Shown one piece after another: positions 13,575 through 52,965 of a stretch of DNA of 64,000 nucleotides. Numbering within the stretch: position 1 is the first letter of the stretch; each line of letters starts with the position of its first letter. Under the pieces are notes generated by a model, which saw only the letters and a list, made by a program, of their open reading frames with translations, was not told the DNA's origin and ran no database searches. Source of the DNA: Hexactinellida sp. DTS-2022. Taxonomy: Eukaryota > Porifera > Hexactinellida. Made by a program: the position numbers and the translations under genes. The DNA is taken from the NCBI GenBank assembly GCA_028753945.1, contig JAPNXP010000002.1:15321624-15385623 (forward strand). The letters run 5' to 3'.

Positions 13575-13639
13575 GTAGGTTGTCTTAGTTACCCGCTTAT
13601 ACTAAGTTATATATATTCCCTAGATAGATAAATTTGTTT

Positions 13640-13679: not shown

Positions 13680-16600
13680 GCGTACAATATTATAAAGTGG
13701 ATATAATGAATTCCGAATACTAACTAAGTCTACAGTAGTATAATGTGCTATATATTGTACGCAAAAAGCGTACAATATTATAAAGTAGATATAATGAATT
13801 CCGAATTCTAACTAAGTCTACTGTATGTAATGTGCTATATATTGTACGCAAAATGCGTACAATATTATAAAGTGGATATAATGAATTCCGAATTCTAACA
13901 AAGTCTACTGTAGTATTATAATGTGCTATATATTGTACGCAAAAAGCGTACAATATTATAAAGTAGATATAATGAATTCCGATTACTAACTAAGTCTACT
14001 GTAGTATAATGTGCTATTTATTGTACGCAAAAAGCGTACAATATTATAAAGTAGATATAATGAATTCCGAATTCTAACTAAGTCTACTGTATGTAATGTG
14101 CTATATATTGTACGCAAAATGCGTACAATATTATAAAGTGGATATAATGAATTCCGAATTCTAACAAAGTCTACTGTAGTATTATAATGTGCTATTTATT
14201 GTACGCAAAAAGCGTACAATATTATAAAGTAGATATAATGAATTCCGATTACTAACTAAGTCTACTGTAGTATAATGTGCTATATATTGTACGCAAAAAG
14301 CGTACAATATTATAAAGTAGATATAATGAATTCCGAATTCTAACTAAGTCTACTGTAGTATTATAATGTGCTATTTATTGTACGCAAAAAGCGTACAATA
14401 TTATAAAGTGGATATAATGAATTCCGAATACTAACTAAGTCTACTGTAGTATAATGTGCTATATATTGTACGCAAAAAGCGTACAATATTATAAAGTAGA
14501 TATAATGAATTCCGAATTCTAACTAAGTCTACTGTATGTAATGTGCTATATATTGTACGCAAAATGCGTACAATATTATAAAGTGGATATAATGAATTCC
14601 GAATTCTAACAAAGTCTACTGTAGTATTATAATGTGCTATTTATTGTACGCAAAAAGCGTACAATATTATAAAGTAGATATAATGAATTCCGATTACTAA
14701 CTAAGTCTACTGTATGTAATGTGCTATATATTGTACGCAAAATGCGTACAATATTATAAAGTGGATATAATGAATTCCGAATTCTAACTAAGTCTACTGT
14801 AGTATTATAATGTGCTATTTATTGTACGCAAAAAGCGTACAATATTATAAAGTGGATATAATGAATTCCGAATACTAACTAAGTCTACTGTAGTATAATG
14901 TGCTATATATTGTACGCAAAAAGCGTACAATATTATAAAGTAGATATAATGAATTCCGAATTCTAACTAAGTCTACTGTATGTAATGTGCTATATATTGT
15001 ACGCAAAATGCGTACAATATTATAAAGTGGATATAATGAATTCCGATTACTAACTAAGTCTACTGTAGTATAATGTGCTATATATTGTACGCAAAATGCG
15101 TACAATATTATAAAGTGGATTTAATGAATTCCGAATCCTAACTAAGTCTACTGTAGTATAATGTGCTATATATTGTACGCAAAATGCGTACAATATTATA
15201 AATTGGATATAATGAATTCCGAATTCTAACTAAGTCTACTGTAGTATAATGTGCTATATATTGTACGCAAAATGCGTACAATATTATAAATTGGATATAA
15301 TGAATTCCGAATACTAACTAAGTCTACTGTAGTATAATGTGCTATATATTGTACGCAAAATGCGTACAATATTATAAAGTGGATATAATGAATTCCGAAT
15401 TCTAACTAAGTCTACTGTAGTATTATAATGTGCTATTTATTGTACGCAAAAAGCGTACAATACTATAAAGTAGATATAATGAATTCCGATTACTAACTAA
15501 GTCTACTGTAGTATAATGTGCTATATATTCTACGCAAAATGCGTACAATATTATAAAGTGGATATAATGAATTCCGAATCCTAACTAAGTCTACTGTAGT
15601 ATAATGTGCTATATATTGTACGCAAAATGCGTACAATATTATAAATTGGATATAATGAATTCCGAATTCTAACTAAGTCTACTGTAGTATAATGTGCTAT
15701 ATATTGTACGCAAAATGCGTACAATATTATAAAGTGGATATAATGAATTCCGAATTCTAACTAAGTCTACTGTAGTATTATAATGTGCTATTTATTGTAC
15801 GCAAAAAGCGTACAATACTATAAAGTAGATATAATGAATTCCGATTACTAACTAAGTCTACTGTAGTATAATGTGCTATATATTCTACGCAAAATGCGTA
15901 CAATATTATAAAGTGGATATAATGAATTCCGAATCCTAACTAAGTCTACTGTAGTATAATGTGCTATATATTGTACGCAAAATGCGTACAATATTATAAA
16001 TTGGATATAATGAATTCCGAATTCTAACTAAGTCTACTGTAGTATAATGTGCTATATATTGTACGCAAAATGCGTACAATATTATAAAGTGGATTTAATG
16101 AATTCCGAATCCTAACTAAGTCTACTGTAGTATAATTAGCTATATATTGTACGCAAAATGCGTACAATATTATAAATTGGATATAATGAATTCCGAATTC
16201 TAACTAAGTCTACTGTAGTATAATGTGCTATATATTGTACGCAAAATGCGTACAATATTATAAAGTGGATATAATGAATTCCGAATTCTAACTAAGTCTA
16301 CTGTAGTATTATAATGTGCTATTTATTGTACGCAAAAAGCGTACAATACTATAAAGTAGATATAATGAATTCCGATTACTAACTAAGTCTACTGTAGTAT
16401 AATGTGCTATATATTCTACGCAAAATGCGTACAATATTATAAAGTGGATATAATGAATTCCGAATCCTAACTAAGTCTACTGTAGTATAATGTGCTATAT
16501 ATTGTACGCAAAATGCGTACAATATTATAAATTGGATATAATGAATTCCGAATTCTAACTAAGTCTACTGTAGTATAATGTGCTATATATTGTACGCAAA

Positions 16601-19600
16601 ATGCGTACAATATTATAAAGTGGATATAATGAATTCCGAATTCTAACTAAGTCTACTGTAGTATAATGTGCTATTTATTGTTCGCAAAATGCGTACAATA
16701 TTATAAAGTAGATATAATGAATTCCGAATTCTAACTAAGTCTACTGTAGTATAATGTGCTATATATTGTACGCAAAATGCGTACAATATTATAAAGTAGA
16801 TATAATGAATTCCGAATTCTAACTAAGTCTACTGTATGTAATGTGCTATATATTGTACGCAAAATGCGTACAATACTATAAAGTGGATATAATGAATTCC
16901 GAATCCTAACTAAGTCTACTGTAGTATAATGTGCTATATATTCTACGCAAAATGCGTACAATATTATAAATTGGATATAATGAATTCCGAATTCTAACTA
17001 AGTCTACTGTAGTATTATAATGTGCTATTTATTGTACGCAAAAAGCGTACAATATTATAAAGTGGATATAATGAATTCCGAATTCTAACTAAGTCTACTG
17101 TAGTATAATGTGCTATATATTGTACGCAAAATGCGTACAATATTATAAAGTGGATATAATGAATTCCGAATTCTAACTAAGTCTACTGTAGTATTATAAT
17201 GTGCTATTTATTGTACGCAAAAAGCGTACAATATTATAAAGTAGATATAATGAATTCCGAATACTAACTAAGTCTACTGTAGTATAATGTGCTATATATT
17301 GTACGCAAAAAGCGTACAATACTATAAAGTAGATATAATGAATTCCGATTACTAACTAAGTCTACTGTAGTATAATGTGCTATATATTGTACGCAAAATG
17401 CGTACAATATTATAAAGTGGATTTAATGAATTCCGAATCCTAACTAAGTCTACTGTAGTATAATGTGCTATATATTGTACGCAAAAAGCGTACAATACTA
17501 TAAAGTAGATATAATGAATTCCGATTACTAACTAAGTCTACTGTAGTATAATGTGCTATATATTGTACGCAAAAAGCGTACAATACTATAAAGTAGATAT
17601 AATGAATTCCGATTACTAACTAAGTCTACTGTATGTAATGTGCTATATATTGTACGCAAAATGCGTACAATATTATAAAGTGGATATAATGAATTCCGAA
17701 TTCTAACTAAGTCTACTGTAGTATTATAATGTGCTATTTATTGTACGCAAAAAGCGTACAATATTATAAAGTAGATATAATGAATTCCGAATACTAACTA
17801 AGTCTACTGTAGTATAATGTGCTATATATTGTACGCAAAAAGCGTACAATACTATAAAGTAGATATAATGAATTCCGATTACTAACTAAGTCTACTGTAG
17901 TATAATGTGCTATATATTGTACGCAAAATGCGTACAATATTATAAAGTGGATTTAATGAATTCCGAATCCTAACTAAGTCTACTGTAGTATAATGTGCTA
18001 TATATTCTACGCAAAATGCGTACAATATTATAAATTGGATATAATGAATTCCGAATTCTAACTAAGTCTACTGTAGTATTATAATGTGCTATTTATTGTA
18101 CGCAAAAAGCGTACAATATTATAAAGTGGATATAATGAATTCCGAATACTAACTAAGTCTACTGTAGTATAATGTGCTATATATTGTACGCAAAATGCGT
18201 ACAATATTATAAAGTGGATTTAATGAATTCCGAATCCTAACTAAGTCTACTGTAGTATAATGTGCTATATATTCTACGCAAAATGCGTACAATATTATAA
18301 ATTGGATATAATGAATTCCGAATTCTAACTAAGTCTACTGTAGTATTATAATGTGCTATATATTGTACGCAAAATGCGTACAATATTATAAAGTGGATTT
18401 AATGAATTCCGAATCCTAACTAAGTCTACTGTAGTATAATGTGCTATATATTCTACGCAAAATGCGTACAATATTATAAATTGGATATAATGAATTCCGA
18501 ATTCTAACTAAGTCTACTGTAGTATTATAATGTGCTATATATTGTACGCAAAAAGCGTACAATATTATAAAGTAGATATAATGAATTCCGAATTCTAACT
18601 AAGTCTACTGTATGTAATGTGCTATATATTGTACGCAAAATGCGTACAATATTATAAAGTGGATATAATGAATTCCGAATTCTAACTAAGTCTACTGTAG
18701 TATAATAATGTGCTATTTATTGTACGCAAAAAGCGTACAATATTATAAAGTAGATATAATGAATTCCGAATTCTAACTAAGTCTACTGTAGTATAATGTG
18801 CTATATATTGTACGCAAAAAGCGTACAATACTATAAAGTAGATATAATGAATTCCGATTACTAACTAAGTCTACTGTAGTATAATGTGCTATATATTGTA
18901 CGCAAAATGCGTACAATATTATAAAGTGGATTTAATGAATTCCGAATCCTAACTAAGTCTACTGTAGTATAATGTGCTATATATTCTACTCAAAATGCGT
19001 ACAATATTATAAATTGGATATAATGAATTCCGAATACTAACTAAGTCTACTGTAGTATAATGTGCTATATATTGTACGCAAAATGCGTACAATATTATAA
19101 AGTGGATTTAATGAATTCCGAATCCTAACTAAGTCTACTGTAGTATAATGTGCTATATATTCTACGCAAAATGCGTACAATATTATAAAGTGGATTTAAT
19201 GAATTCCGAATCCTAACTAAGTCTACTGTAGTATAATTAGCTATATATTCTACGCAAAATGCGTACAATATTATAAATTGGATATAATGAATTCCGAATT
19301 CTAACTAAGTCTACTGTAGTATAATGTGCTATATATTGTACGCAAAATGCGTACAATATTATAAAGTGGATATAATGAATTCCGAATTCTAACTAAGTCT
19401 ACTGTAGTATAATGTGCTATATATTGTACGCAAAATGCGTACAATATTATAAAGTAGATATAATGAATTCCGAATTCTAACTAAGTCTACTGTAGTATAA
19501 TGTGCTATATATTGTACGCAAAATGCGTACAATATTATAAAGTAGATATAATGAATTCCGAATTCTAACTAAGTCTACTGTATGTAATGTGCTATATATT

Positions 19601-22600
19601 GTACGCAAAATGCGTACAATACTATAAAGTGGATATAATGAATTCCGAATTCTAACTAAGTCTACTGTAGTATAATGTGCTATATATTGTACGCAAAAAG
19701 CGTACAATACTATAAAGTAGATATAATGAATTCCGATTACTAACTAAGTCTACTGTATGTAATGTGCTATATATTGTACGCAAAATGCGTACAATATTAT
19801 AAAGTGGATTTAATGAATTCCGAATTCTAACTAAGTCTACTGTAGTATAATGTGCTATATATTGTACGCAAAAAGCGTACAATACTATAAAGTAGATATA
19901 ATGAATTCCGATTACTAACTAAGTCTACTGTAGTATAATGTGCTATATATTGTACGCAAAATGCGTACAATATTATAAAGTGGATTTAATGAATTCCGAA
20001 TCCTAACTAAGTCTACTGTAGTATAATGTGCTATATATTCTACGCAAAATGCGTACAATATTATAAATTGGATATAATGAATTCCGAATTCTAACTAAGT
20101 CTACTGTAGTATTATAATGTGCTATTTATTGTACGCAAAAAGCGTACAATATTATAAAGTGGATATAATGAATTCCGAATTCTAACTAAGTCTACTGTAG
20201 TATAATGTGCTATATATTGTACGCAAAATGCGTACAATATTATAAAGTGGATATAATGAATTCCGAATTCTAACTAAGTCTACTGTAGTATTATAATGTG
20301 CTATTTATTGTACGCAAAAAGCGTACAATATTATAAAGTAGATATAATGAATTCCGAATACTAACTAAGTCTACTGTAGTATAATGTGCTATATATTGTA
20401 CGCAAAAAGCGTACAATACTATAAAGTAGATATAATGAATTCCGATTACTAACTAAGTCTACTGTAGTATAATGTGCTATATATTGTACGCAAAATGCGT
20501 ACAATATTATAAAGTGGATTTAATGAATTCCGAATCCTAACTAAGTCTACTGTAGTATAATGTGCTATATATTGTACGCAAAAAGCGTACAATACTATAA
20601 AGTAGATATAATGAATTCCGATTACTAACTAAGTCTACTGTAGTATAATGTGCTATATATTGTACGCAAAATGCGTACAATATTATAAAGTGGATTTAAT
20701 GAATTCCGAATCCTAACTAAGTCTACTGTAGTATAATGTGCTATATATTCTACGCAAAATGCGTACAATATTATAAATTGGATATAATGAATTCCGAATT
20801 CTAACTAAGTCTACTGTAGTATTATAATGTGCTATTTATTGTACGCAAAAAGCGTACAATATTATAAAGTGGATATAATGAATTCCGAATACTAACTAAG
20901 TCTACTGTAGTATAATGTGCTATATATTGTACGCAAAAAGCGTACAATATTATAAAGTAGATATAATGAATTCCGAATTCTAACTAAGTCTACTGTATGT
21001 AATGTGCTATATATTGTACGCAAAAAGCGTACAATATTATAAAGTAGATATAATGAATTCCGAATTCTAACTAAGTCTACTGTAGTATAATGTGCTATAT
21101 ATTGTACGCAAAATGCGTACAATATTATAAAGTGGATATAATGAATTCCGAATTCTAACTAAGTCTACTGTAGTATTATAATGTGCTATTTATTGTACGC
21201 AAAAAGCGTACAATATTATAAAGTGGATATAATGAATTCCGAATTCTAACTAAGTCTACTGTAGTATAATGTGCTATATATTATACGCAAAATGCGTACA
21301 ATATTATAAATTGGATATAATGAATTCCGAATTCTAACTAAGTCTACTGTAGTATAATGTGCTATATATTGTACGCAAAATGCGTACAATATTATAAAGT
21401 GGATATAATGAATTCCGAATTCTAACTAAGTCTACTGTAGTATAATGTGCTATATATTGTACGCAAAATGCGTACAATACTATAAAGTAGATATAATGAA
21501 TTCCGATTACTAACTAAGTCTACTGTAGTATAATGTGCTATATATTGTACGCAAAATGCGTACAATATTATAAAGTGGATATAATGAATTCCGAATTCTA
21601 ACTAAGTCTACTGTAGTATAATGTGCTATATATTGTACGCAAAAAGCGTACAATATTATAAAGTGGATATAATGAATTCCGAATTCTAACTAAGTCTACT
21701 GTAGTATAATGTGCTATATATTGTACGCAAAATGCGTACAATATTATAAAGTAGATATAATGAATTCCGAATTCTAACTAAGTCTACTGTATGTAATGTG
21801 CTATGTATTGTACGCAAAAAGCGTACAATATTATAAATTGGATATAATGAATTCCGAATTCTAACTAAGTCTACTGTAGTATTATAATGTGCTATTTATT
21901 GTACGCAAAATGCGTACAATATTATAAAGTAGATATAATGAATTCCGAATTCTAACTAAGTCTACTGTATGTAATGTGCTATGTATTGTACGCAAAAAGC
22001 GTACAATATTATAAATTGGATATAATGAATTCCGATTACTAACTAAGTCTACTGTAGTATAATGTGCTATATATTGTACGCAAAATGCGTACAATATTAT
22101 AAAGTGGATATAATGAATTCCGATTACTAACTAAGTCTACTGTAGTATAATGTGCTATATATTCTACGCAAAATGCGTACAATATTATAAATTGGATATA
22201 ATGAATTCCGAATTCTAACTAAGTCTACTGTAGTATAATGTGCTATATATTGTACGCAAAATGCGTACAATATTATAAAGTGGATATATTGAATTCCGAA
22301 TTCTAACTAAGTCTACTGTAGTATAATGTGCTATATATTGTACGCAAAATGCGTACAATATTATAAAGTAGATATAATGAATTCCGAATTCTAACTAAGT
22401 CTACTGTATGTAATGTGCTATATATTGTACGCAAAATGCGTACAATACTATAAAGTGGATATAATGAATTCCGAATTCTAACTAAGTCTACTGTAGTATA
22501 ATGTGCTATATATTGTACGCAAAAAGCGTACAATACTATAAAGTAGATATAATGAATTCCGATTACTAACTAAGTCTACTGTAGTATAATGTGCTATATA

Positions 22601-23629
22601 TTGTACGCAAAATGCGTACAATATTATAAAGTGGATATAATGAATTCCGAATTCTGACTAAGTCTACTGTAGTATAATGTGCTATATATTGTACGCAAAA
22701 AGCGTACAATATTATAAAGTAGATATAATGAATTCCGAATTCTAACTAAGTCTACTGTAGTATAATGTGCTATATATTGTACGCAAAAAGCGTACAATAC
22801 TATAAAGTAGATATAATGAATTCCGATTACTAACTAAGTCTACTGTAGTATAATGTGCTATATATTGTACGCAAAATGCGTACAATATTATAAAGTGGAT
22901 ATAATGAATTCCGAATTCTAACTAAGTCTACTGTAGTATAATGTGCTATATATTGTACGCAAAATGCGTACAATATTATAAAGTAGATATAATGAATTCC
23001 GATTACTAACTAAGTCTACTGTATGTAATGTGCTATTTATTGTACGCAAAAAGCGTACAATATTATAAAGTAGATATAATGAATTCCGAATTCTAACTAA
23101 GTCTACTGTAGTATAATGTGCTATATATTGTACGCAAAAAGCGTACAATACTATAAAGTAGATATAATGAATTCCGATTACTAACTAAGTCTACTGTAGT
23201 ATAATGTGCTATATATTGTACGCAAAATGCGTACAATATTATAAAGTGGATATAATGAATTCCGAATTCTAACTAAGTCTACTGTAGTATAATGTGCTAT
23301 ATATTGTACGCAAAATGCGTACAATATTATAAAGTAGATATAATGAATTCCGAATTCTAACTAAGTCTACTGTATGTAATGTGCTATGTATTGTACGCAA
23401 AAAGCGTACAATATTATAAATTGGATATAATGAATTCCGAATTCTAACTAAGTCTACTGTAGTATAATGTGCTATATATTGTACGCAAAATGCGTACAAT
23501 ATTATAAAGTGGATATAATGAATTCCGAATTCTAACTAAGTCTACTGTAGTATAATGTGCTATATATTGTACGCAAAAAGCGTACAATACTATAAAGTGG
23601 ATATAATGAATTCCGAATTCTAACTAAGT

Positions 23630-26600
23630 CTACTGTAGTATAATGTGCTATATATTCTACGCAAAATGCGTACAATATTATAAATTGGATATAATGAATT
23701 CCGAATTCTAACTAAGTCTACTGTAGTATAATGTGCTATATATTGTACGCAAAATGCGTACAATATTATAAAGTGGATATAATGAATTCCGAATTCTAAC
23801 TAAGTCTACAGTAGTATAATGTGCTATATATTGTACGCAAAATGCGTACAATATTATAAAGTAGATATAATGAATTCCGAATTCTAACTAAGTCTACTGT
23901 ATGTAATGTGCTATGTATTGTACGCAAAAAGCGTACAATATTATAAATTGGATATAATGAATTCCGAATTCTAACTAAGTCTACTGTAGTATAATGTGCT
24001 ATATATTGTACGCAAAATGCGTACAATATTATAAAGTGGATATAATGAATTCCGAATTCTAACTAAGTCTACTGTAGTATAATGTGCTATATATTGTACG
24101 CAAAATGCGTACAATATTATAAAGTGGATATAATGAATTCCGAATTCTAACTAAGTCTACTGTAGTATAATGTGCTATATATTGTACGCAAAATGCGTAC
24201 AATACTATAAAGTGGATATAATGAATTCCGAATTCTAACTAAGTCTACTGTAGTATAATGTGCTATATATTGTACGCAAAATGCGTACAATATTATAAAG
24301 TGGATATAATGAATTCCGAATTCTAACTAAGTCTACTGTAGTATAATGTGCTATATATTGTACGCAAAATGCGTACAATATTATAAAGTGGATATAATGA
24401 ATTCCGAATTCTAACTAAGTCTACTCTAGTATAATGTGCTATATATTGTACGCAAAAAGCGTACAATACTATAAAGTAGATATAATGAATTCCGATTACT
24501 AACTAAGTCTACTGTATGTAATGTGCTATTTATTGTACGCAAAATGCGTACAATATTATAAAGTAGATATAATGAATTCCGAATTCTAACTAAGTCTACT
24601 GTAGTATAATGTGCTATATATTCTACGCAAAATGCGTACAATACTATAAAGTAGATATAATGAATTCCGAATTCTAACTAAGTCTACTGTAGTATAATGT
24701 GCTATATATTGTACGCAAAAAGCGTACAATACTATAAAGTAGATATAATGAATTCCGAATTCTAACTAAGTCTACTGTAGTATAATGTGCTATATATTCT
24801 ACGCAAAATGCGTACAATATTATAAAGTAGATATAATGAATTCCGAATTCTAACTAAGTCTACTGTAGTATAATGTGCTATATATTCTACGCAAAATGCG
24901 TACAATATTATAAAGTAGATATAATGAATTCCGATTACTAACTAAGTCTACTGTATGTAATGTGCTATATATTGTACGCAAAAAGCGTACAATACTATAA
25001 AGTAGATATAATGAATTCCGATTACTAACTAAGTCTACTGTATGTAATGTGCTATTTATTGTACGCAAAATGCGTACAATATTATAAAGTGGATATAATG
25101 AATTCCGAATTCTAACTAAGTCTACTGTAGTATAATGTGCTATATATTGTACGCAAAAAGCGTACAATACTATAAAGTAGATATAATGAATTCCGATTAC
25201 TAACTAAGTCTACTGTATGTAATGTGCTATTTATTGTACGCAAAATGCGTACAATATTATAAAGTAGATATAATGAATTCCGAATTCTAACTAAGTCTAC
25301 TGTAGTATAATGTGCTATATATTCTACGCAAAATGCGTACAATACTATAAATTGGATATAATGAATTCCGAATTCTAACTAAGTCTACTGTAGTATAATG
25401 TGCTATATATTGTACGCAAAATGCGTACAATATTATAAAGTGGATATAATGAATTCCGAATCCTAACTAAGTCTACTGTAGTATAATGTGCTATATATTC
25501 TACGCAAAATGCGTACAATATTATAAATTGGATATAATGAATTCCGAATACTAACTAAGTCTACTGTAGTATAATGTGCTATATATTCTACGCAAAATGC
25601 GTACAATATTATAAAGTGGATTTAATGAATTCCGAATCCTAACTAAGTCTACTGTAGTATAATTAGCTATATATTGTACGCAAAATGCGTACAATATTAT
25701 AAATTGGATATAATGAATTCCGAATTCTAACTAAGTCTACTGTAGTATAATGTGCTATGTATTGTACGCGAAATGCGTACAATATTATAAAGTGGATTTA
25801 ATGAATTCCGAATCCTAACTAAGTCTACTGTAGTATAATGTGCTATATATTCTACGCAAAATGCGTACAATATTATAAATTGGATATAATGAATTCCGAA
25901 TTCTAACTAAGTCTACTGTAGTATAATGTGCTATATATTCTACGCAAAATGCGTACAATATTATAAATTGGATATAATGAATTCCGAATTCTAACTAAGT
26001 CTACTGTAGTATAATGTGCTATATATTGTACGCAAAATGCGTACAATATTATAAAGTGGATATAATGAATTCCGAATTCTAACTAAGTCTACAGTAGTAT
26101 AATGTGCTATATATTGTACGCAAAATGCGTACAATATTATAAAGTAGATATAATGAATTCCGAATTCTAACTAAGTCTACTGTATGTAATGTGCTATGTA
26201 TTGTACGCAAAAAGCGTACAATATTATAAATTGGATATAATGAATTCCGAATTCTAACTAAGTCTACTGTAGTATAATGTGCTATATATTGTACGCAAAA
26301 TGCGTACAATATTATAAAGTGGATATAATGAATTCCGAATTCTAACTAAGTCTACTGTAGTATAATGTGCTATATATTGTACGCAAAATGCGTACAATAT
26401 TATAAAGTGGATATAATGAATTCCGAATTCTAACTAAGTCTACTGTAGTATAATGTGCTATATATTGTACGCAAAATGCGTACAATACTATAAAGTGGAT
26501 ATAATGAATTCCGAATTCTAACTAAGTCTACTGTAGTATAATGTGCTATATATTGTACGCAAAATGCGTACAATATTATAAAGTGGATATAATGAATTCC

Positions 26601-28198
26601 GAATTCTAACTAAGTCTACTGTAGTATAATGTGCTATATATTGTACGCAAAATGCGTACAATATTATAAAGTGGATATAATGAATTCCGAATTCTAACTA
26701 AGTCTACTCTAGTATAATGTGCTATATATTGTACGCAAAAAGCGTACAATACTATAAAGTAGATATAATGAATTCCGATTACTAACTAAGTCTACTGTAT
26801 GTAATGTGCTATTTATTGTACGCAAAATGCGTACAATATTATAAAGTAGATATAATGAATTCCGAATTCTAACTAAGTCTACTGTAGTATAATGTGCTAT
26901 ATATTCTACGCAAAATGCGTACAATACTATAAAGTAGATATAATGAATTCCGAATTCTAACTAAGTCTACTGTAGTATAATGTGCTATATATTGTACGCA
27001 AAAAGCGTACAATACTATAAAGTAGATATAATGAATTCCGAATTCTAACTAAGTCTACTGTAGTATAATGTGCTATATATTCTACGCAAAATGCGTACAA
27101 TATTATAAAGTAGATATAATGAATTCCGAATTCTAACTAAGTCTACTGTAGTATAATGTGCTATATATTCTACGCAAAATGCGTACAATATTATAAAGTA
27201 GATATAATGAATTCCGATTACTAACTAAGTCTACTGTATGTAATGTGCTATATATTGTACGCAAAAAGCGTACAATACTATAAAGTAGATATAATGAATT
27301 CCGATTACTAACTAAGTCTACTGTATGTAATGTGCTATTTATTGTACGCAAAATGCGTACAATATTATAAAGTGGATATAATGAATTCCGAATTCTAACT
27401 AAGTCTACTGTAGTATAATGTGCTATATATTGTACGCAAAAAGCGTACAATACTATAAAGTAGATATAATGAATTCCGATTACTAACTAAGTCTACTGTA
27501 TGTAATGTGCTATTTATTGTACGCAAAATGCGTACAATATTATAAAGTAGATATAATGAATTCCGAATTCTAACTAAGTCTACTGTAGTATAATGTGCTA
27601 TATATTCTACGCAAAATGCGTACAATACTATAAATTGGATATAATGAATTCCGAATTCTAACTAAGTCTACTGTAGTATAATGTGCTATATATTGTACGC
27701 AAAATGCGTACAATATTATAAAGTGGATATAATGAATTCCGAATCCTAACTAAGTCTACTGTAGTATAATGTGCTATATATTCTACGCAAAATGCGTACA
27801 ATATTATAAATTGGATATAATGAATTCCGAATACTAACTAAGTCTACTGTAGTATAATGTGCTATATATTCTACGCAAAATGCGTACAATATTATAAAGT
27901 GGATTTAATGAATTCCGAATCCTAACTAAGTCTACTGTAGTATAATTAGCTATATATTGTACGCAAAATGCGTACAATATTATAAATTGGATATAATGAA
28001 TTCCGAATTCTAACTAAGTCTACTGTAGTATAATGTGCTATGTATTGTACGCGAAATGCGTACAATATTATAAAGTGGATTTAATGAATTCCGAATCCTA
28101 ACTAAGTCTACTGTAGTATAATGTGCTATATATTCTACGCAAAATGCGTACAATATTATAAATTGGATATAATGAATTCCGAATTCTAACTAAGTCTA
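23630..28198. repeat. 2,283-bp (26-monomer) tandem duplication within the satellite
   Basis: The block at about 23,630–25,915 is repeated immediately as 25,915–28,198. Rare variants recur at exactly 2,283 bp: CTACAGTAGTATAAT (23,808 and 26,091) and CTACTCTAGTATAAT (about 24,421 and 26,704). Confidence 0.9.
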
Positions 28199-37700: not shown

Positions 37701-40700
37701 AGTCTACTGTAGTATAATGTGCTATATATTGTACGCAAAAAGCGTACAATACTATAAAGTAGATATAATGAATTCCGATTACTAACTAAGTCTACTGTAG
37801 TATAATGTGCTATATATTCTACGCAAAATGCGTACAATATTATAAATTGGATATAATGAATTCCGAATTCTAACTAAGTCTACTGTATGTAATGTGCTAT
37901 GTATTGTACGCAAAATGCGTACAATACTATAAAGTGGATATAATGAATTCCGAATTCTAACTAAGTCTACTGTATGTAATGTGCTATGTATTGTACGCAA
38001 AATGCGTACAATACTATAAAGTAGATATAATGAATTCCGATTACTAACTAAGTCTACTGTAGTATAATGTGCTATATATTCTACGCAAAATGCGTACAAT
38101 ATTATAAATTGGATATAATGAATTCCGAATTCTAACTAAGTCTACTGTAGTATAATGTGCTATATATTGTACGCAAAATGCGTACAATACTATAAAGTGG
38201 ATATAATGAATTCCGAATTCTAACTAAGTCTACTGTAGTATAATGTGCTATATATTGTACGCAAAAAGCGTACAATACTATAAAGTAGATATAATGAATT
38301 CCGATTACTAACTAAGTCTACTGTAGTATAATGTGCTATATATTCTACGCAAAATGCTTACAATATTATAAATTGGATATAATGAATTCCGAATTCTAAC
38401 TAAGTCTACTGTAGTATAATGTGCTATATATTGTACGCAAAATGCGTACAATACTATAAAGTGGATATAATGAATTCCGAATTCTAACTAAGTCTACTGT
38501 AGTATAATGTGCTATATATTGTACGCAAAAAGCGTACAATACTATAAAGTAGATATAATGAATTCCGATTACTAACTAAGTCTACTGTATGTAATGTGCT
38601 ATTTATTGTACGCAAAAAGCGTACAATATTATAAAGTAGATATAATGAATTCCGAATTCTAACTAAGTCTACTGTAGTATAATGTGCTATATATTGTACG
38701 CAAAAAGCGTACAATACTATAAAGTAGATATAATGAATTCCGATTACTAACTAAGTCTACTGTAGTATAATGTGCTATATATTGTACGCAAAATGCGTAC
38801 AATATTATAAAGTGGATATAATGAATTCCGAATTCTAACTAGGTCTACTGTAGTATAATGTGCTATATATTGTACGCAAAATGCGTACAATATTATAAAG
38901 TAGATATAATGAATTCCGAATTCTAACTAAGTCTACTGTATGTAATGTGCTATGTATTGTACGCAAAAAGCGTACAATACTATAAAGTAGATATAATGAA
39001 TTCCGAATTCTAACTAAGTCTACTGTAGTATAATGTGCTATATATTGTACGCAAAATGCGTACAATATTATAAAGTGGATATAATGAATTCCGAATTCTA
39101 ACTAAGTCTACTGTAGTATAATGTGCTATATATTGTACGCAAAAAGCGTACAATACTATAAAGTAGATATAATGAATTCCGATTACTAACTAAGTCTACT
39201 GTATGTAATGTGCTATTTATTGTACGCAAAATGCGTACAATATTATAAAGTGGATATAATGAATTCCGAATTCTAACTAAGTCTACTGTAGTATTATAAT
39301 GTGCTATTTATTGTACGCAAAAAGCGTACAATATTATAAAGTAGATATAATGAATTCCGAATACTAACTAAGTCTACTGTAGTATAATGTGCTATATATT
39401 GTACGCAAAAAGCGTACAATACTATAAAGTAGATATAATGAATTCCGATCCTAACTAAGTCTACTGTAGTATAATGTGCTATATATTCTACGCAAAATGC
39501 GTACAATATTATAAATTGGATATAATGAATTCCGAATTCTAACTAAGTCTACTGTAGTATAATGTGCTATATATTGTACGCAAAATGCGTACAATATTAT
39601 AAAGTGGATTTAATGAATTCCGAATCCTAACTAAGTCTACTGTAGTATAATGTGCTATATATTCTACGCAAAATGCGTACAATATTATAAATTGGATATA
39701 ATGAATTCCGAATACTAACTAAGTCTACTGTAGTATAATGTGCTATATATTCTACGCAAAATGCGTACAATATTATAAAGTGGATTTAATGAATTCCGAA
39801 TCCTAACTAAGTCTACTGTAGTATAATTAGCTATATATTGTACGCAAAATGCGTACAATATTATAAATTGGATATAATGAATTCCGAATTCTAACTAAGT
39901 CTACTGTAGTATAATGTGCTATGTATTGTACGCGAAATGCGTACAATATTATAAAGTGGATTTAATGAATTCCGAATCCTAACTAAGTCTACTGTAGTAT
40001 AATGTGCTATATATTGTACGCAAAATGCGTACAATATTATAAATTGGATATAATGAATTCCGAATTCTAACTAAGTCTACTGTAGTATAATGTGCTATAT
40101 ATTGTACGCAAAATGCGTACAATATTATAAAGTGGATATAATGAATTCCGAATTCTAACTAAGTCTACTGTAGTATAATGTGCTATATATTGTACGCAAA
40201 ATGCGTACAATACTATAAAGTGGATATAATGAATTCCGAATTCTAACTAAGTCTACTGTAGTATAATGTGCTATATATTGTACGCAAAAAGCGTACAATA
40301 CTATAAAGTAGATATAATGAATTCCGATTACTAACTAAGTCTACTGTATGTAATGTGCTATTTATTGTACGCAAAATGCGTACAATATTATAAAGTGGAT
40401 ATAATGAATTCCGAATTCTAACTAAGTCTACTGTAGTATAATGTGCTATATATTCTACGCAAAATGCGTACAATATTATAAAGTAGATATAATGAATTCC
40501 GAATCCTAACTAAGTCTACTGTAGTATAATGTGCTATATATTCTACGCAAAATGCGTACAATATTATAAATTGGATATAATGAATTCCGAATACTAACTA
40601 AGTCTACTGTAGTATAATGTGCTATATATTCTACGCAAAATGCGTACAATATTATAAAGTGGATTTAATGAATTCCGAATCCTAACTAAGTCTACTGTAG

Positions 40701-40839
40701 TATAATTAGCTATATATTGTACGCAAAATGCGTACAATATTATAAATTGGATATAATGAATTCCGAATTCTAACTAAGTCTACTGTAGTATAATGTGCTA
40801 TGTATTGTACGCGAAATGCGTACAATATTATAAAGTGGA

Positions 40840-43800
40840 TTTAATGAATTCCGAATCCTAACTAAGTCTACTGTAGTATAATGTGCTATATATTCTACGC
40901 AAAATGCGTACAATATTATAAATTGGATATAATGAATTCCGAATTCTAACTAAGTCTACTGTAGTATAATGTGCTATATATTGTACGCAAAATGCGTACA
41001 ATATTATAAAGTGGATATAATGAATTCCGAATTCTAACTAAGTCTACTGTAGTATAATGTGCTATATATTGTACGCAAAATGCGTACAATACTATAAAGT
41101 GGATATAATGAATTCCGAATTCTAACTAAGTCTACTGTAGTATAATGTGCTATATATTGTACGCAAAAAGCGTACAATACTATAAAGTAGATATAATGAA
41201 TTCCGATTACTAACTAAGTCTACTGTATGTAATGTGCTATTTATTGTACGCAAAATGCGTACAATATTATAAATTGGATATAATGAATTCCGAATTCTAA
41301 CTAAGTCTACTGTAGTATAATGTGCTATATATTGTACGCAAAATGCGTACAATATTATAAAGTAGATATAATGAATTCCGAATCCTAACTAAGTCTACTG
41401 TAGTATAATGTGCTATATATTCTACGCAAAATGCGTACAATATTATAAATTGGATATAATGAATTCCGAATACTAACTAAGTCTACTGTAGTATAATGTG
41501 CTATATATTCTACGCAAAATGCGTACAATATTATAAAGTGGATTTAATGAATTCCGAATCCTAACTAAGTCTACTGTAGTATAATTAGCTATATATTGTA
41601 CGCAAAATGCGTACAATATTATAAATTGGATATAATGAATTCCGAATTCTAACTAAGTCTACTGTAGTATAATGTGCTATGTATTGTACGCGAAATGCGT
41701 ACAATATTATAAAGTGGATTTAATGAATTCCGAATCCTAACTAAGTCTACTGTAGTATAATGTGCTATATATTCTACGCAAAATGCGTACAATATTATAA
41801 ATTGGATATAATGAATTCCGAATTCTAACTAAGTCTACTGTAGTATAATGTGCTATATATTGTACGCAAAATGCGTACAATACTATAAAGTAGATATAAT
41901 GAATTCCGAATTCTAACTAAGTCTACTGTAGTATAATGTGCTATATATTGTACGCAAAATGCGTACAATATTATAAAGTAGATATAATGAATTCCGAATT
42001 CTAACTAAGTCTACTGTATGTAATGTGCTATATATTGTACGCAAAATGCGTACAATACTATAAAGTGGATATAATGAATTCCGAATTCTAACTAAGTCTA
42101 CTGTAGTATAATGTGCTATATATTGTACGCAAAATGCGTACAATATTATAAAGTAGATATAATGAATTCCGAATTCTAACTAAGTCTACTGTAGTATAAT
42201 GTGCTATATATTGTACGCAAAAAGCGTACAATACTATAAAGTAGATATAATGAATTCCGATTACTAACTAAGTCTACTGTATGTAATGTGCTATTTATTG
42301 TACGCAAAATGCGTACAATATTATAAAGTGGATATAATGAATTCCGAATTCTAACTAAGTCTACTGTAGTATAATGTGCTATATATTGTACGCAAAATGC
42401 GTACAATATTATAAAGTAGATATAATGAATTCCGAATTCTAACTAAGTCTACTGTAGTATAATGTGCTATATATTGTACGCAAAAAGCGTACAATACTAT
42501 AAAGTAGATATAATGAATTCCGATTACTAACTAAGTCTACTGTATGTAATGTGCTATGTATTGTACGCAAAAAGCGTACAATACTATAAAGTAGATATAA
42601 TGAATTCCGAATCCTAACTAAGTCTACTGTAGTATAATGTGCTATATATTCTACGCAAAATGCGTACAATATTATAAATTGGATATAATGAATTCCGAAT
42701 TCTAACTAAGTCTACTGTAGTATAATGTGCTATATATTGTACGCAAAATGCGTACAATATTATAAAGTGGATTTAATGAATTCCGAATCCTAACTAAGTC
42801 TAATGTAGTATAATGTGCTATATATTCTACGCAAAATGCGTACAATATTATAAATTGGATATAATGAATTCCGAATACTAACTAAGTCTACTGTAGTATA
42901 ATGTGCTATATATTCTACGCAAAATGCGTACAATATTATAAAGTGGATTTAATGAATTCCGAATCCTAACTAAGTCTACTGTAGTATAATTAGCTATATA
43001 TTGTACGCAAAATGCGTACAATATTATAAATTGGATATAATGAATTCCGAATTCTAACTAAGTCTACTGTAGTATAATGTGCTATGTATTGTACGCGAAA
43101 TGCGTACAATATTATAAAGTAGATATAATGAATTCCGAATCCTAACTAAGTCTACTGTAGTATAATGTGCTATATATTCTACGCAAAATGCGTACAATAT
43201 TATAAATTGGATATAATGAATTCCGAATCCTAACTAAGTCTAATGTAGTATAATGTGCTATATATTCTACGCAAAATGCGTACAATATTATAAATTGGAT
43301 TTAATGAATTCCGAATCCTAACTAAGTCTAATGTAGTATAATGTGCTATATATTCTACGCAAAATGCGTACAATATTATAAATTGGATTTAATGAATTCC
43401 GAATCCTAACTAAGTCTACTGTAGTATAATGTGCTATATATTCTACGCAAAATGCGTACAATATTATAAATTGGATATAATGAATTCCGAATTCTAACTA
43501 AGTCTACTGTAGTATAATGTGCTATATATTGTACGCAAAATGCGTACAATATTATAAAGTGGATATAATGAATTCCGAATTCTAACTAAGTCTACTGTAG
43601 TATAATGTGCTATATATTGTACGCAAAATGCGTACAATACTATAAAGTGGATATAATGAATTCCGAATTCTAACTAAGTCTACTGTAGTATAATGTGCTA
43701 TATATTGTACGCAAAAAGCGTACAATACTATAAAGTAGATATAATGAATTCCGATTACTAACTAAGTCTACTGTATGTAATGTGCTATTTATTGTACGCA

Positions 43801-45530
43801 AAATGCGTACAATATTATAAATTGGATATAATGAATTCCGAATTCTAACTAAGTCTACTGTAGTATAATGTGCTATATATTGTACGCAAAATGCGTACAA
43901 TATTATAAAGTAGATATAATGAATTCCGAATCCTAACTAAGTCTACTGTAGTATAATGTGCTATATATTCTACGCAAAATGCGTACAATATTATAAATTG
44001 GATATAATGAATTCCGAATACTAACTAAGTCTACTGTAGTATAATGTGCTATATATTCTACGCAAAATGCGTACAATATTATAAAGTGGATTTAATGAAT
44101 TCCGAATCCTAACTAAGTCTACTGTAGTATAATTAGCTATATATTGTACGCAAAATGCGTACAATATTATAAATTGGATATAATGAATTCCGAATTCTAA
44201 CTAAGTCTACTGTAGTATAATGTGCTATGTATTGTACGCGAAATGCGTACAATATTATAAAGTGGATTTAATGAATTCCGAATCCTAACTAAGTCTACTG
44301 TAGTATAATGTGCTATATATTCTACGCAAAATGCGTACAATATTATAAATTGGATATAATGAATTCCGAATTCTAACTAAGTCTACTGTAGTATAATGTG
44401 CTATATATTGTACGCAAAATGCGTACAATACTATAAAGTAGATATAATGAATTCCGAATTCTAACTAAGTCTACTGTAGTATAATGTGCTATATATTGTA
44501 CGCAAAATGCGTACAATATTATAAAGTAGATATAATGAATTCCGAATTCTAACTAAGTCTACTGTATGTAATGTGCTATATATTGTACGCAAAATGCGTA
44601 CAATACTATAAAGTGGATATAATGAATTCCGAATTCTAACTAAGTCTACTGTAGTATAATGTGCTATATATTGTACGCAAAATGCGTACAATATTATAAA
44701 GTAGATATAATGAATTCCGAATTCTAACTAAGTCTACTGTAGTATAATGTGCTATATATTGTACGCAAAAAGCGTACAATACTATAAAGTAGATATAATG
44801 AATTCCGATTACTAACTAAGTCTACTGTATGTAATGTGCTATTTATTGTACGCAAAATGCGTACAATATTATAAAGTGGATATAATGAATTCCGAATTCT
44901 AACTAAGTCTACTGTAGTATAATGTGCTATATATTGTACGCAAAATGCGTACAATATTATAAAGTAGATATAATGAATTCCGAATTCTAACTAAGTCTAC
45001 TGTAGTATAATGTGCTATATATTGTACGCAAAAAGCGTACAATACTATAAAGTAGATATAATGAATTCCGATTACTAACTAAGTCTACTGTATGTAATGT
45101 GCTATGTATTGTACGCAAAAAGCGTACAATACTATAAAGTAGATATAATGAATTCCGAATCCTAACTAAGTCTACTGTAGTATAATGTGCTATATATTCT
45201 ACGCAAAATGCGTACAATATTATAAATTGGATATAATGAATTCCGAATTCTAACTAAGTCTACTGTAGTATAATGTGCTATATATTGTACGCAAAATGCG
45301 TACAATATTATAAAGTGGATTTAATGAATTCCGAATCCTAACTAAGTCTAATGTAGTATAATGTGCTATATATTCTACGCAAAATGCGTACAATATTATA
45401 AATTGGATATAATGAATTCCGAATACTAACTAAGTCTACTGTAGTATAATGTGCTATATATTCTACGCAAAATGCGTACAATATTATAAAGTGGATTTAA
45501 TGAATTCCGAATCCTAACTAAGTCTACTGT
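40840..45530. repeat. 2.1-kb satellite block repeated at a 2,548-bp offset
   Basis: About 40,840–42,980 recurs as 43,390–45,530. Shared rare markers: AATTAGCTATATATTG (41,584 and 44,132), CTAATGTAGTATAAT (42,802 and 45,350) and GCGAAATGCG. Offset equals 29 monomers. Confidence 0.88.
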
Positions 45531-46289
45531 AGTATAATGTGCTATATATTCTACGCAAAATGCGTACAATATTATAAATTGGATATAATGAATTCCGATT
45601 ACTAACTAAGTCTACTGTAGTATAATGTGCTATATATTGTACGCAAAATGCGTACAATATTATAAAGTGGATATAATGAATTCCGAATTCTAACTAAGTC
45701 TACTGTACTATAATGTGCTATATATTGTACGCAAAATGCGTACAATATTATAAAGTAGATATAATGAATTCCGAATTCTAACTAAGTCTACTGTATGTAA
45801 TGTGCTATGTATTGTACGCAAAAAGCGTACAATATTATAAATTGGATATAATGAATTCCGAATTCTAACTAAGTCTACTGTAGTATAATGTGCTATATAT
45901 TGTACGCAAAATGCGTACAATATTATAAAGTGGATATAATGAATTCCGAATTCTAACTAAGTCTACTGTAGTATAATGTGCTATATATTGTACGCAAAAT
46001 GCGTACAATATTATAAAGTGGATATAATGAATTCCGAATTCTAACTAAGTCTACTGTAGTATAATGTGCTATATATTGTACGCAAAAAGCGTACAATATT
46101 ATAAAGTGGATATAATGAATTCCGAATTCTAACTAAGTCTACTGTAGTATAATGTGCTATATATTGTACGCAAAAAGCGTACAATACTATAAAGTAGATA
46201 TAATGAATTCCGATTACTAACTAAGTCTACTGTAGTATAATGTGCTATATATTGTACGCAAAAAGCGTACAATATTATAAAGTGGATAT

Positions 46290-48382
46290 AATGAATTCCG
46301 AATTCTAACTAAGTCTACTGTAGTATAATGTGCTATATATTGTACGCAAAATGCGTACAATATTATAAAGTGGATATAATGAATTCCGAATTCTAACTAA
46401 GTCTACTGTATGTAATGTGCTATGTATTGTACGCAAAATTCGTACAATATTATAAAGTGGATATAATGAATTCCGAATTCTAACTAAGTCTACTGTAGTA
46501 TAATGTGCTATATATTGTACGCAAAATGCGTACAATATTATAAAGTAGATATAATGAATTCCGAATTCTAACTAAGTCTACTGTATGTAATGTGCTATGT
46601 ATTGTACGCAAAAAGCGTACAATATTATAAAGTAGATATAATGAATTCTGAATTCTAACTAAGTCTACTGTAGTATAATGTGCTATATATTGTACGCAAA
46701 ATGCGTACAATATTATAAAGTGGATATAATGAATTCCGAATTCTAACTAAGTCTACTGTATGTAATGTGCTATATATTGTACGCAAAATGCGTACAATAT
46801 TATAAAGTAGATATAATGAATTCCGAATTCTAACTAAGTCTACTGTATGTAATGTGCTATATATTGTACGCAAAATGCGTACAATATTATAAAGTGGATA
46901 TAATGAATTCCGAATTCTAACTAAGTCTACTGTAGTATTATAATGTGCTATTTATTGTACGCAAAAAGCGTACAATATTATAAAGTAGATATAATGAATT
47001 CCGAATACTAACTAAGTCTACTGTAGTATAATGTGCTATATATTGTACGCAAAAAGCGTACAATACTATAAAGTAGATATAATGAATTCCGATCCTAACT
47101 AAGTCTACTGTAGTATAATGTGCTATATATTGTACGCAAAATGCGTACAATATTATAAAGTGGATTTAATGAATTCCGAATCCTAACTAAGTCTACTGTA
47201 GTATAATGTGCTATATATTCTACGCAAAATGCGTACAATATTATAAATTGGATATAATGAATTCCGAATACTAACTAAGTCTACTGTAGTATAATGTGCT
47301 ATATATTCTACGCAAAATGCGTACAATATTATAAAGTGGATTTAATGAATTCCGAATTCTAACTAAGTCTACTGTAGTATAATGTGCTATATATTGTACG
47401 CAAAATGCGTACAATACTATAAAGTGGATATAATGAATTCCGAATTCTAACTAAGTCTACTGTAGTATAATGTGCTATATATTGTACGCAAAATGCGTAC
47501 AATATTATAAAGTGGATATAATGAATTCCGAATTCTAACTAAGTCTACTGTATGTAATGTGCTATGTATTGTACGCAAAATTCGTACAATATTATAAAGT
47601 GGATATAATGAATTCCGAATTCTAACTAAGTCTACTGTAGTATAATGTGCTATATATTGTACGCAAAATGCGTACAATATTATAAAGTAGATATAATGAA
47701 TTCCGAATTCTAACTAAGTCTACTGTATGTAATGTGCTATGTATTGTACGCAAAAAGCGTACAATATTATAAAGTAGATATAATGAATTCTGAATTCTAA
47801 CTAAGTCTACTGTAGTATAATGTGCTATATATTGTACGCAAAATGCGTACAATATTATAAAGTGGATATAATGAATTCCGAATTCTAACTAAGTCTACTG
47901 TATGTAATGTGCTATATATTGTACGCAAAATGCGTACAATATTATAAAGTAGATATAATGAATTCCGAATTCTAACTAAGTCTACTGTATGTAATGTGCT
48001 ATATATTGTACGCAAAATGCGTACAATATTATAAAGTGGATATAATGAATTCCGAATTCTAACTAAGTCTACTGTAGTATTATAATGTGCTATTTATTGT
48101 ACGCAAAAAGCGTACAATATTATAAAGTAGATATAATGAATTCCGAATACTAACTAAGTCTACTGTAGTATAATGTGCTATATATTGTACGCAAAAAGCG
48201 TACAATACTATAAAGTAGATATAATGAATTCCGATCCTAACTAAGTCTACTGTAGTATAATGTGCTATATATTGTACGCAAAATGCGTACAATATTATAA
48301 AGTGGATTTAATGAATTCCGAATCCTAACTAAGTCTACTGTAGTATAATGTGCTATATATTCTACGCAAAATGCGTACAATA
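46290..48382. repeat. 0.95-kb satellite block repeated at a 1,142-bp offset
   Basis: About 46,290–47,240 recurs as 47,432–48,382 (13-monomer offset). The unique variant GCAAAATTCGTAC marks both copies (46,433 and 47,575), as does ATGAATTCTGAATTC. Confidence 0.88.
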
Positions 48383-51300
48383 TTATAAAGTGGATTTAAT
48401 GAATTCCGAATTCTAACTAAGTCTACTGTAGTATAATGTGCTATATATTGTACGCAAAATGCGTACAATACTATAAAGTGGATATAATGAATTCCGAATT
48501 CTAACTAAGTCTACTGTAGTATAATGTGCTATATATTGTACGCAAAAAGCGTACAATACTATAAAGTAGATATAATGAATTCCGATTACTAACTAAGTCT
48601 ACTGTATGTAATGTGCTATTTATTGTACGCAAAATGCGTACAATATTATAAAGTGGATATAATGAATTCCGAATTCTAACTAAGTCTACTGTAGTATAAT
48701 GTGCTATATATTCTACGCAAAATGCGTACAATATTATAAATTGGATATAATGAATTCCGAATACTAACTAAGTCTACTGTAGTATAATGTGCTATATATT
48801 CTACGCAAAATGCGTACAATATTATAAAGTGGATTTAATGAATTCCGAATCCTAACTAAGTCTACTGTAGTATAATTAGCTATATATTGTACGCAAAATG
48901 CGTACAATATTATAAATTGGATATAATGAATTCCGAATTCTAACTAAGTCTACTGTAGTATAATGTGCTATGTATTGTACGCGAAATGCGTACAATATTA
49001 TAAAGTGGATTTAATGAATTCCGAATCCTAACTAAGTCTACTGTAGTATAATGTGCTATATATTCTACGCAAAATGCGTACAATATTATAAATTGGATAT
49101 AATGAATTCCGAATTCTAACTAAGTCTACTGTAGTATAATGTGCTATATATTGTACGCAAAATGCGTACAATATTATAAAGTGGATATAATGAATTCCGA
49201 ATTCTAACTAAGTCTACTGTAGTATAATGTGCTATATATTGTACGCAAAATGCGTACAATATTATAAAGTAGATATAATGAATTCCGAATTCTAACTAAG
49301 TCTACTGTATGTAATGTGCTATATATTGTACGCAAAATGCGTACAATATTATAAATTGGATATAATGAATTCCGAATACTAACTAAGTCTACTGTAGTAT
49401 AATGTGCTATATATTGAACGCGAAATGCGTACAATATTATTAAGTGGATATAATGAATTCCGAATACTAACTAAGTCTACTGTAGTATAATGTGCTATGT
49501 ATTGTACGCAAAATGCGTACAATATTTTAAATTGGATATAATGAATTCCGAATACTAACTAAGTCTACTGTAGTATAATGTGCTATTTATTGTACGCAAA
49601 AAGCGTACAATACTATAAAGTAGATATAATGAATTCCGAATTCTAACTAAGTCTACTGTAGTATAATGTGCTATATATTGTACGCAAAATGCGTACAATA
49701 TTATAAAGTAGATATAATGAATTCCGAATTCTAACTAAGTCTACTGTAGTATAATGTGCTATATATTCTACGCAAAATGCGTACAATATTATAAAGTGGA
49801 TTTAATGAATTCCGAATTCTAACTAAGTCTACTGTAGTATAATGTGCTATATATTGTACGCAAAATGCGTACAATACTATAAAGTGGATATAATGAATTC
49901 CGAATTCTAACTAAGTCTACTGTAGTATAATGTGCTATATATTGTACGCAAAAAGCGTACAATACTATAAAGTAGATATAATGAATTCCGATTACTAACT
50001 AAGTCTACTGTATGTAATGTGCTATGTATTGTACGCAAAAAGCGTACAATACTATAAAGTAGATATAATGAATTCCGAATCCTAACTAAGTCTACTGTAG
50101 TATAATGTGCTATATATTCTACGCAAAATGCGTACAATATTATAAATTGGATATAATGAATTCCGAATTCTAACTAAGTCTACTGTAGTATAATGTTCTA
50201 TATATTGTACGCAAAATGCGTACAATATTATAAAGTGGATTTAATGAATTCCGAATCCTAACTAAGTCTACTGTAGTATAATGTGCTATATATTCTACGC
50301 AAAATGCGTACAATATTATAAATTGGATATAATGAATTCCGAATACTAACTAAGTCTACTGTAGTATAATGTGCTATATATTCTACGCAAAATGCGTACA
50401 ATATTATAAATTGGATATAATGAATTCCGAATCCTAACTAAGTCTACTGTAGTATAATGTGCTATATATTCTACGCAAAATGCGTACAATATTATAAAGT
50501 GGATTTAATGAATTCCGAATCCTAACTAAGTCTACTGTAGTATAATGTGCTATATATTCTACGCAAAATGCGTACAATACTATAAAGTGGATATAATGAA
50601 TTCCGAATTCTAACTAAGTCTACTGTAGTATAATGTGCTATATATTGTACGCAAAATGCGTACAATACTATAAAGTAGATATAATGAATTCCGAATTCTA
50701 ACTAAGTCTACTGTAGTATAATGTGGTATATATTGTACGCAAAATGCGTACAATATTATAAAGTAGATATAATGAATTCCGAATACTAACTAAGTCTACT
50801 GTATGTAATGTGCTATTTATTGTTCGCAAAATGCGTACAATACTATAAAGTGGATATAATGAATTCCGAATTCTAACTAAGTCTACTGTAGTATAATGTG
50901 CTATATATTGTACGCAAAATGCGTACAATACTATAAAGTGGATATAATGAATTCCGAATTCTAACTAAGTCTACTGTATGTAATGTGCTATATATTGTAC
51001 GCAAAATGCGTACAATATTATAAATTGGATATAATGAATTCCGAATCCTAACTAAGTCTACTGTAGTATAATGTGCTATATATTCTACGCAAAATGCGTA
51101 CAATATTATAAAGTGGATTTAATGAATTCCGAATCCTAACTAAGTCTACTGTAGTATAATGTGCTATATATTCTACGCAAAATGCGTACAATACTATAAA
51201 GTGGATATAATGAATTCCGAATTCTAACTAAGTCTACTGTAGTATAATGTGCTATATATTGTACGCAAAATGCGTACAATACTATAAAGTAGATATAATG

Positions 51301-52874
51301 AATTCCGAATTCTAACTAAGTCTACTGTAGTATAATGTGGTATATATTGTACGCAAAATGCGTACCATATTATAAAGTAGATATAATGAATTCCGAATAC
51401 TAACTAAGTCTACTGTATGTAATGTGCTATTTATTGTTCGCAAAATGCGTACAATACTATAAAGTGGATATAATGAATTCCGAATTCTAACTAAGTCTAC
51501 TGTAGTATAATGTGCTATATATTGTACGCAAAATGCGTACAATACTATAAAGTGGATATAATGAATTCCGAATTCTAACTAAGTCTACTGTAGTATAATG
51601 TGCTATATATTCTACGCAAAATGCGTACAATATTATAAAGTGGATTTAATGAATTCCGAATCCTAACTAAGTCTACTGTAGTATAATGTGCTATATATTC
51701 TACGCAAAATGCGTACAATACTATAAAGTGGATATAATGAATTCCGAATTCTAACTAAGTCTACTGTAGTATAATGTGCTATATATTGTACGCAAAATGC
51801 GTACAATACTATAAAGTAGATATAATGAATTCCGAATTCTAACTAAGTCTACTGTAGTATAATGTGGTATATATTGTACGCAAAATGCGTACAATATTAT
51901 AAAGTAGATATAATGAATTCCGAATACTAACTAAGTCTACTGTAGTATAATGTGCTATATATTGTACGCAAAATGCGTACAATACTATAAAGTGGATATA
52001 ATGAATTCCGAATCCTAACTAAGTCTACTGTAGTATAATGTGCTATATATTCTACGCAAAATGCGTACAATATTATAAAGTGGATTTAATGAATTCCGAA
52101 TCCTAACTAAGTCTACTGTAGTATAATGTGCTATATATTCTACGCAAAATGCGTACAATACTATAAAGTGGATATAATGAATTCCGAATTCTAACTAAGT
52201 CTACTGTAGTATAATGTGCTATATATTGTACGCAAAATGCGTACAATACTATAAAGTAGATATAATGAATTCCGAATTCTAACTAAGTCTACTGTAGTAT
52301 AATGTGGTATATATTGTACGCAAAATGCGTACAATATTATAAAGTAGATATAATGAATTCCGAATACTAACTAAGTCTACTGTATGTAATGTGCTATTTA
52401 TTGTACGCAAAATGCGTACAATATTATAAATTGGATATAATGAATTCCGAATACTAACTAAGTCTACTGTAGTATAATGTGCTATGTATTGTACGCAAAA
52501 TGCGTACAATATTTTAAATTGGATATAATGAATTCCGAATACTAACTAAGTCTACTGTAGTATAATGTGCTATATATTGTACGCAAAATGCGTACAATAC
52601 TATAAAGTAGATATAATGAATTCCGAATTCTAACTAAGTCTACTGTAGTATAATGTGCTATATATTGTACGCAAAATGCGTACAATATTATAAAGTAGAT
52701 ATAATGAATTCCGAATTCTAACTAAGTCTACTGTATGTAATGTGCTATATATTGTACGCAAAATGCGTACAATACTATAAAGTGGATATAATGAATTCCG
52801 AATGCTAACTAAGTCTACTGTATTATAATGTTATTTATATTCTAGTTACTTTTGGCTTCTTTAATTTATATTTC

Positions 52875-52918: not shown

Positions 52919-52965
52919 AGTATACGGTCTATGAACTATTGTATATTTGTTATGAGAATACTTAT

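Follow-up and report, generated by a model that had tools for sequence, protein, structure and literature searches.

How does a satellite array of some 39 kb come to lie inside a single intron of a protein-coding gene, and is it a peculiarity of that gene or of the place in the genome where the gene sits? We addressed this question in a stretch of 64,000 nucleotides (C11:15321624-15385623, hereafter the window) taken from a sponge genome assembly of 112.4 Mb in 18 contigs, which are called C1 to C18 here.

The original prediction was that an 88-bp unit is repeated about 445 times, over about 39 kb and without interruption, in one intron. TRF and the intron borders both upheld it (Table 1). The array was single and gap-free, with 94% matches and 0% indels. 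The 437 anchor-to-anchor distances that give the unit spacing were mostly of 88 bp (n=316), the others being of 87 bp (n=83), 91 bp (n=32), 176 bp (n=5) and 264 bp (n=1); by unit segmentation, the largest anchor gap was 176 bp, that is, two units. Identity to the consensus averaged 96.6% over 419 segmented units, with a minimum of 89%, and was even along the array (95.5-96.9% in each of eight 5-kb bins). There were 117 distinct unit sequences. Of neighbouring units, 1.4% were identical, and a higher-order periodicity was seen locally, at 25-26, 10 and 13 units. Such a long head-to-tail array of homogenised units is satellite DNA. Its G+C content was 28-29%, versus 32-42% outside (2-kb steps). 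The observed/expected ratio of CpG in the array was 1.7, hence no sign of CpG loss, and Rfam returned no match in the window.

Both flanks of the array are pieces of one short repeat family that is present elsewhere in the window. The left flank (13590..13671, minus strand) matched positions 53435-53516 in reversed orientation, at 79.5% over 83 bp (E 2.5e-14), and the right flank (52869..52923, plus strand) matched 53515-53562 and 57838-57881 (E 3.1e-8 and 2.5e-9, respectively). By inspection, this short repeat family appears MITE-like, and the flank pattern is consistent with, without proving, growth of the array inside a MITE-like element. The 88-bp unit itself gave marginal matches to the rest of the window (E 0.005 or worse).

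Eleven exons with AG/GT borders, named A to K, yielded a single open frame of 1,095 residues when joined. Exon A starts at an acceptor, so the gene begins upstream of the window. Eight of the ten introns are 240-594 bp long, another has 7,872 bp, and the remaining one holds the array, which starts 102 bp past the donor and ends 230 bp short of the acceptor. The exons flanking the array had been predicted to keep phase 0/0 (as exons 9 and 10), and this held within the single open frame over the 11 exons. Linkage of the exons across the array rests on the assembly, the splice phase and the open frame. The original prediction that the satellite units must be transcribed and spliced out would hold provided that the gene produces a full-length mRNA.

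Table 1. Positions in the window of the satellite array, its intron and the exons of the host gene.
Feature	Position	Strand	Basis
88-bp satellite array, 444.8 copies	13677..52831	+	TRF, unit analysis
Array-holding intron, 39,487 bp, GT...AG	13575..53061	+	splice borders, open frame
Exon A, first exon seen	598..888	+	AG/GT borders, open frame
Exon B, VWA_N match below Pfam cut-off	1455..1796	+	frame, Pfam
Exon C, VWA domain	2247..2510	+	frame, Pfam
Exon D, VWA domain	10383..10591	+	frame, Pfam
Exon E	11186..11279	+	frame
Exon F, weak dCache_1 match below cut-off	11713..12038	+	frame, domain search
Exon G, Cache-type part matching CACHD1	12363..13239	+	frame, PDB-set search
Exon H, last before the array (exon 9 of the original prediction)	13480..13574	+	frame
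Exon I, first after the array (exon 10 of the original prediction)	53062..53290	+	frame
Exon J	53800..54051	+	frame
Exon K, last coding exon, stop codon 54675-54677	54367..54677	+	frame

The identity of the host gene had to be revised, as had the claim of protein homology across the array. The gene had been taken for an alpha2delta calcium-channel subunit gene. Among solved structures, CACHD1 (PDB 8s7c) was the best match (E 5e-22, query residues 27-334 and 455-815); alpha2delta-1 matched over the VWA region only (residues 135-335, ~1e-12), and the VGCC_alpha2 family (PF08473) was absent from the Pfam hits at E<=1. In Pfam, VWA_2 passed its cut-off, and VWA_N, VWA and a PDC/Cache part fell short of theirs. 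The host is thus predicted to be an alpha2delta/CACHD1-type gene with CACHD1 as its best match among solved structures. It shares with CACHD1 and alpha2delta proteins the VWA_N, VWA and Cache-type parts in the same order, but differs from them in that the part encoded after the array bears no detectable similarity. As a matter of fact, the post-array exons taken alone had no match at E<=10 in the PDB set, exons I to K had no domain match, and in a longer query the colinear post-array stretch of CACHD1 scored a non-significant -2.3 bits. Frame and phase therefore support one gene, while homology across the array is weak. The idea that exons F and I are repeated Cache ends was given up, as 24 of 1000 shuffles scored equally well.

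A second array of the family was found on C15 (369,842-372,426, ~29 units), where it is flanked by exons of an IP3-receptor gene. Excision of C15:369662-373371, a GT-AG segment of 3,710 bp, joined LQLLC to ENHDMHMQKL, and the resulting protein matched IP3 receptors with an E value of 5e-34 in an alignment that spans the join. The same query also returned weak ryanodine receptor matches, and TAL effectors at ~1e-5. At three other array edges (C6, C2 and C15 at 103 kb), no exon was confidently identified. The exon-like stretches beside the C15 103-kb and C2 arrays had no match above the Pfam cut-off, that beside the former had no PDB match below E 0.39, and these two arrays were left out of the intronic count. 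Together, this supports two of the five array loci with some flank read as intronic.

Satellites are where assemblies fail. A possibility was, then, that the array joins unrelated places or is of wrong length, the gene being in reality split or ending before it, and the post-array exons, which alone lack detectable homology, would fit this idea. However, the window contains no N, and the frame, the phase and the GT-AG borders agree on both sides of the array. No exact word of 3 kb recurs in the array and 2.7% of 2-kb words do so, hence longer reads could in principle place its units. Moreover, a genome search with the 516 residues of exons F to J gave five matches, all of them the window's own exons, and the satellite family also occupies the well-supported IP3-receptor intron. 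We consider such an assembly artefact unlikely.

We then considered whether the array might act on its host gene, for which the anatomy of the unit is relevant. The junction of two units forms the palindrome TATTGTACGC-AAAAT-GCGTACAATA, and the units carry inverted repeats at their ends, as do MITEs and DNA transposons. Over 432 junctions, chosen by GCG or CGC beside the loop, a choice that favours the innermost positions, ten arm positions paired in 81-100% and the eleventh in 63% (G-U counted). The RNA of the unit was predicted to fold at -24.5 kcal/mol versus a shuffled mean of -11.7 (z -5.2), and the DNA fold had a z of -3.6, with 1 of 200 shuffles as good. Counts of palindrome variants, in which three alternatives were allowed at the arms and two at the loop, gave one place genome-wide with C or G as the last loop base and the palindrome otherwise exact, and 33 and 36 places for two nearby arm positions altered, the rest being exact.

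That the RNA folds far better than its shuffles, and that 39 kb lengthens the time of transcription, might point to a regulatory array, operating by slowed transcription, nucleation of silent chromatin or a structured RNA. A 14.9-kb intron has been described as affecting the expression timing of knrl (PMC6508621). Yet the fold follows from the palindrome, which is common to the whole family, and no feature specific to the host gene's array was seen. With units taken in equal direction, the C15 array lies antisense to its gene and the C11 array sense to its own. Because the two intronic arrays are thus oppositely oriented relative to their genes, neither the array unit nor the comparison of orientations lent sequence support to a regulatory effect on the host gene, which we regard as distinctly unlikely.

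The strands of the array also differed in signal content. On the sense strand of the gene, there was no AATAAA, ATTAAA, GTAAG or GTGAG, versus 59, 50, 2 and 0, respectively, on the other strand; the sense strand also held 80 GTATGT, 436 TATAAA and 443 AATGAA. Selection for the avoidance of poly(A) and splice signals was rejected despite these zeros, since a single unit was amplified to make the array and its counterpart in the IP3-receptor gene is reversed.

What, then, do the two intronic arrays have in common? We looked at the distribution of the family, which includes 88- and 154-bp units, across the genome. Sixteen spots were located, on 12 of the 18 contigs, and, among the matches listed, all 16 lie 25-474 kb from a contig end, near ends and not in the interior, the zone within 474 kb of contig ends making up 15% of the genome. 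The array of the window thus belongs to a satellite family, end-near among the matches listed, and is not a lone expansion. No spot was found on C1, C3, C4, C7, C9 and C14 among the matches listed.

Several searches contributed to this picture. The unit search revealed, among the matches listed, related arrays on C15, C13, C2 and C16; the matches listed did not include the window's own array or the spots on C5, C6, C8, C10, C12, C17 and C18. The exact junction palindrome occurs at 2,742 places genome-wide (1,460 + 1,282). The first 100 of these in contig order, which reach C6, corresponded to one array near the C2 end, one near the C5 end and one beginning near the C6 start, with none in C1, C3 and C4. 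Another pattern (100 of 408 places listed) added the C8 and C10 spots, and the C15 start spot came from a pattern with 100 of 272 places listed. Complete lists were obtained for the rarer forms, and all their places were subterminal: one variant is confined to the C13 end (87 of 87 places), rare variants lie at the C13 start, the C17 end and both ends of C18 (33 of 33), others at the C12 end and in more of C10 and C15 (36 of 36), and a second C11 spot was given by one place out of one. These complete rare-variant lists cover all contigs; the other four lists give some of the places, so interior copies on C6-C18 are possible. The spots at the C12 end and the C18 start and the second one on C11 each consist of one pattern match rather than a demonstrated array, and one further family pattern had no match in the genome.

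The consensuses drawn from eight sources (that of C6 from three units, those of C2, C5 and C16 from two units each) align over the whole 88 bp, and the surroundings of the junction palindrome are well conserved in all eight. The 154-bp form consists of the 88-bp unit plus ~66 bp, a diverged repeat of part of the unit. Part of the sampled 154-bp units is identical to the terminal stretch of a common local repeat (CTAACGAGGTTCTACT), a longer form of which has five copies in the window outside the array. Some variants are common to different ends, the C13 start sharing one with the C18 end, and the C17 end one with the C18 start (the latter at one place). The coexistence of confined and shared variants is probably the mark of local homogenisation with some exchange.

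The contig ends themselves carry something else. A separate satellite of 211-212 bp was present on 13 of the 18 contig starts (10 kb each) and on 13 of the 18 ends (1.2 kb each), in plus orientation at 12 of the 13 starts, C7 being the exception, and in minus orientation at all 13 ends. Five of the remaining sampled ends matched 408-bp or 41-bp-type repeats. That 26 of the 36 ends sampled carry the 212-bp satellite suggests that the chromosomes are nearly complete. Five consecutive TTAGGG units occur nowhere in the assembly, hence "end" means contig end here. As the 212-bp satellite is the outermost, the place of the 88-bp family is further from the ends, and at least part of it is among genes.

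The explanation that we favour, with a probability of about 0.72, is a subterminal satellite that enters introns and expands there, and is tolerated because splicing removes it. Ectopic exchange, or the re-insertion of excised copies, would carry units from one chromosome end to another, and arrays would then grow locally by unequal exchange, a step to which the higher-order periods may point. In genes near chromosome ends, arrays would persist thanks to the intron being transcribed and spliced out whole. The array would thus be a tolerated passenger of chromosomal position, and not an element selected for its host gene.

A bolder reading, which we hold to be quite improbable, is that the family is a working chromosome-end element able to sit in introns, such as an array that uses the conserved palindrome for pairing, anchoring or protein binding; conserved Ca2+-signalling genes would then carry and transcribe chromosome-end machinery. 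We also hold it improbable that the arrays are centromeres lying near one chromosome end, with the host gene straddling one of them: array lengths that reach tens of kb, a variant specific to one contig, higher-order repeats and the palindromic box conserved in the eight consensuses would suit this, but a centromeric satellite with one array per chromosome was dropped on finding arrays near both C13 ends, C18 has a large array near one end and a single match near the other, C1, C3 and C4 have no exact junction, and C15 has two loci, one of only 2.6 kb.

A subterminal satellite tolerated in introns can be compared with known systems. Subtelomeric satellites form tandem arrays near many chromosome ends, with variants common to several ends. 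The 88-bp family resembles them in lying near many contig ends and in sharing variants between ends; it differs in that a separate satellite is outermost, the family sits further in, and two of its arrays are inside genes.

Satellites inside introns are known as well. In the Drosophila Y genes kl-3 and kl-5, gigantic introns are filled with satellite that is transcribed with the gene, and megabases of simple repeats are described in these Y-linked spermatocyte genes (PMC6508621). As in those introns, the C11 and IP3-receptor arrays lie between exons of one gene. The present case differs from them in size and setting: copies of an 88-bp unit fill 39 kb close to the end of a contig in a compact genome. 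In Tribolium, 29 of 68 euchromatic elements of the TCAST satellite are reported to be in introns (PMC3411249). TCAST is likewise one family with intronic members, and also has a transposon-like form with inverted repeats; however, it is a pericentromeric satellite with dispersed arrays up to tetramers (PMC3411249), whereas here an end-near family reaches hundreds of units. Our search of the literature on subtelomeric or intronic satellites found no match to the 88-bp family, which is no proof of absence.

Satellite-bearing introns are, therefore, already known. What is unusual is an array of 39 kb and 445 units in a gene that otherwise has, for the most part, introns below 0.6 kb, and also the tie of the family to chromosome ends. 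An intronic satellite may, it seems, arise as a by-product of where on the chromosome a gene lies. The two genes, with their arrays in opposite orientations, offer a natural test of satellite load on pre-mRNA in a 112-Mb genome, in which the possible influence of array length, of orientation and of nearness to a chromosome end can be assessed.

Lastly, we noted several features in the neighbourhood of the host gene. Three single-ORF genes encode NHL repeats (5447-7015, plus strand; 7991-9193 and 62931-63974, minus strand), and the first two, which point opposite ways, lie nested within the 7,872-bp intron of the CACHD1-type gene. An array of 17.9 copies of a 22-bp unit (6998-7390) begins at the very end of an NHL ORF, and another of 43.5 copies of a 12-bp unit (TTGTTTACTTGT, 61457-61976) ends, by eye, at an apparent exon border. 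A single-ORF gene for calcipressin (RCAN), a calcineurin regulator, lies 2 kb downstream of the host gene (56692-57306, plus strand). Together with the CACHD1-type gene and the IP3-receptor gene of C15, it makes three Ca2+-linked genes, possibly by chance.
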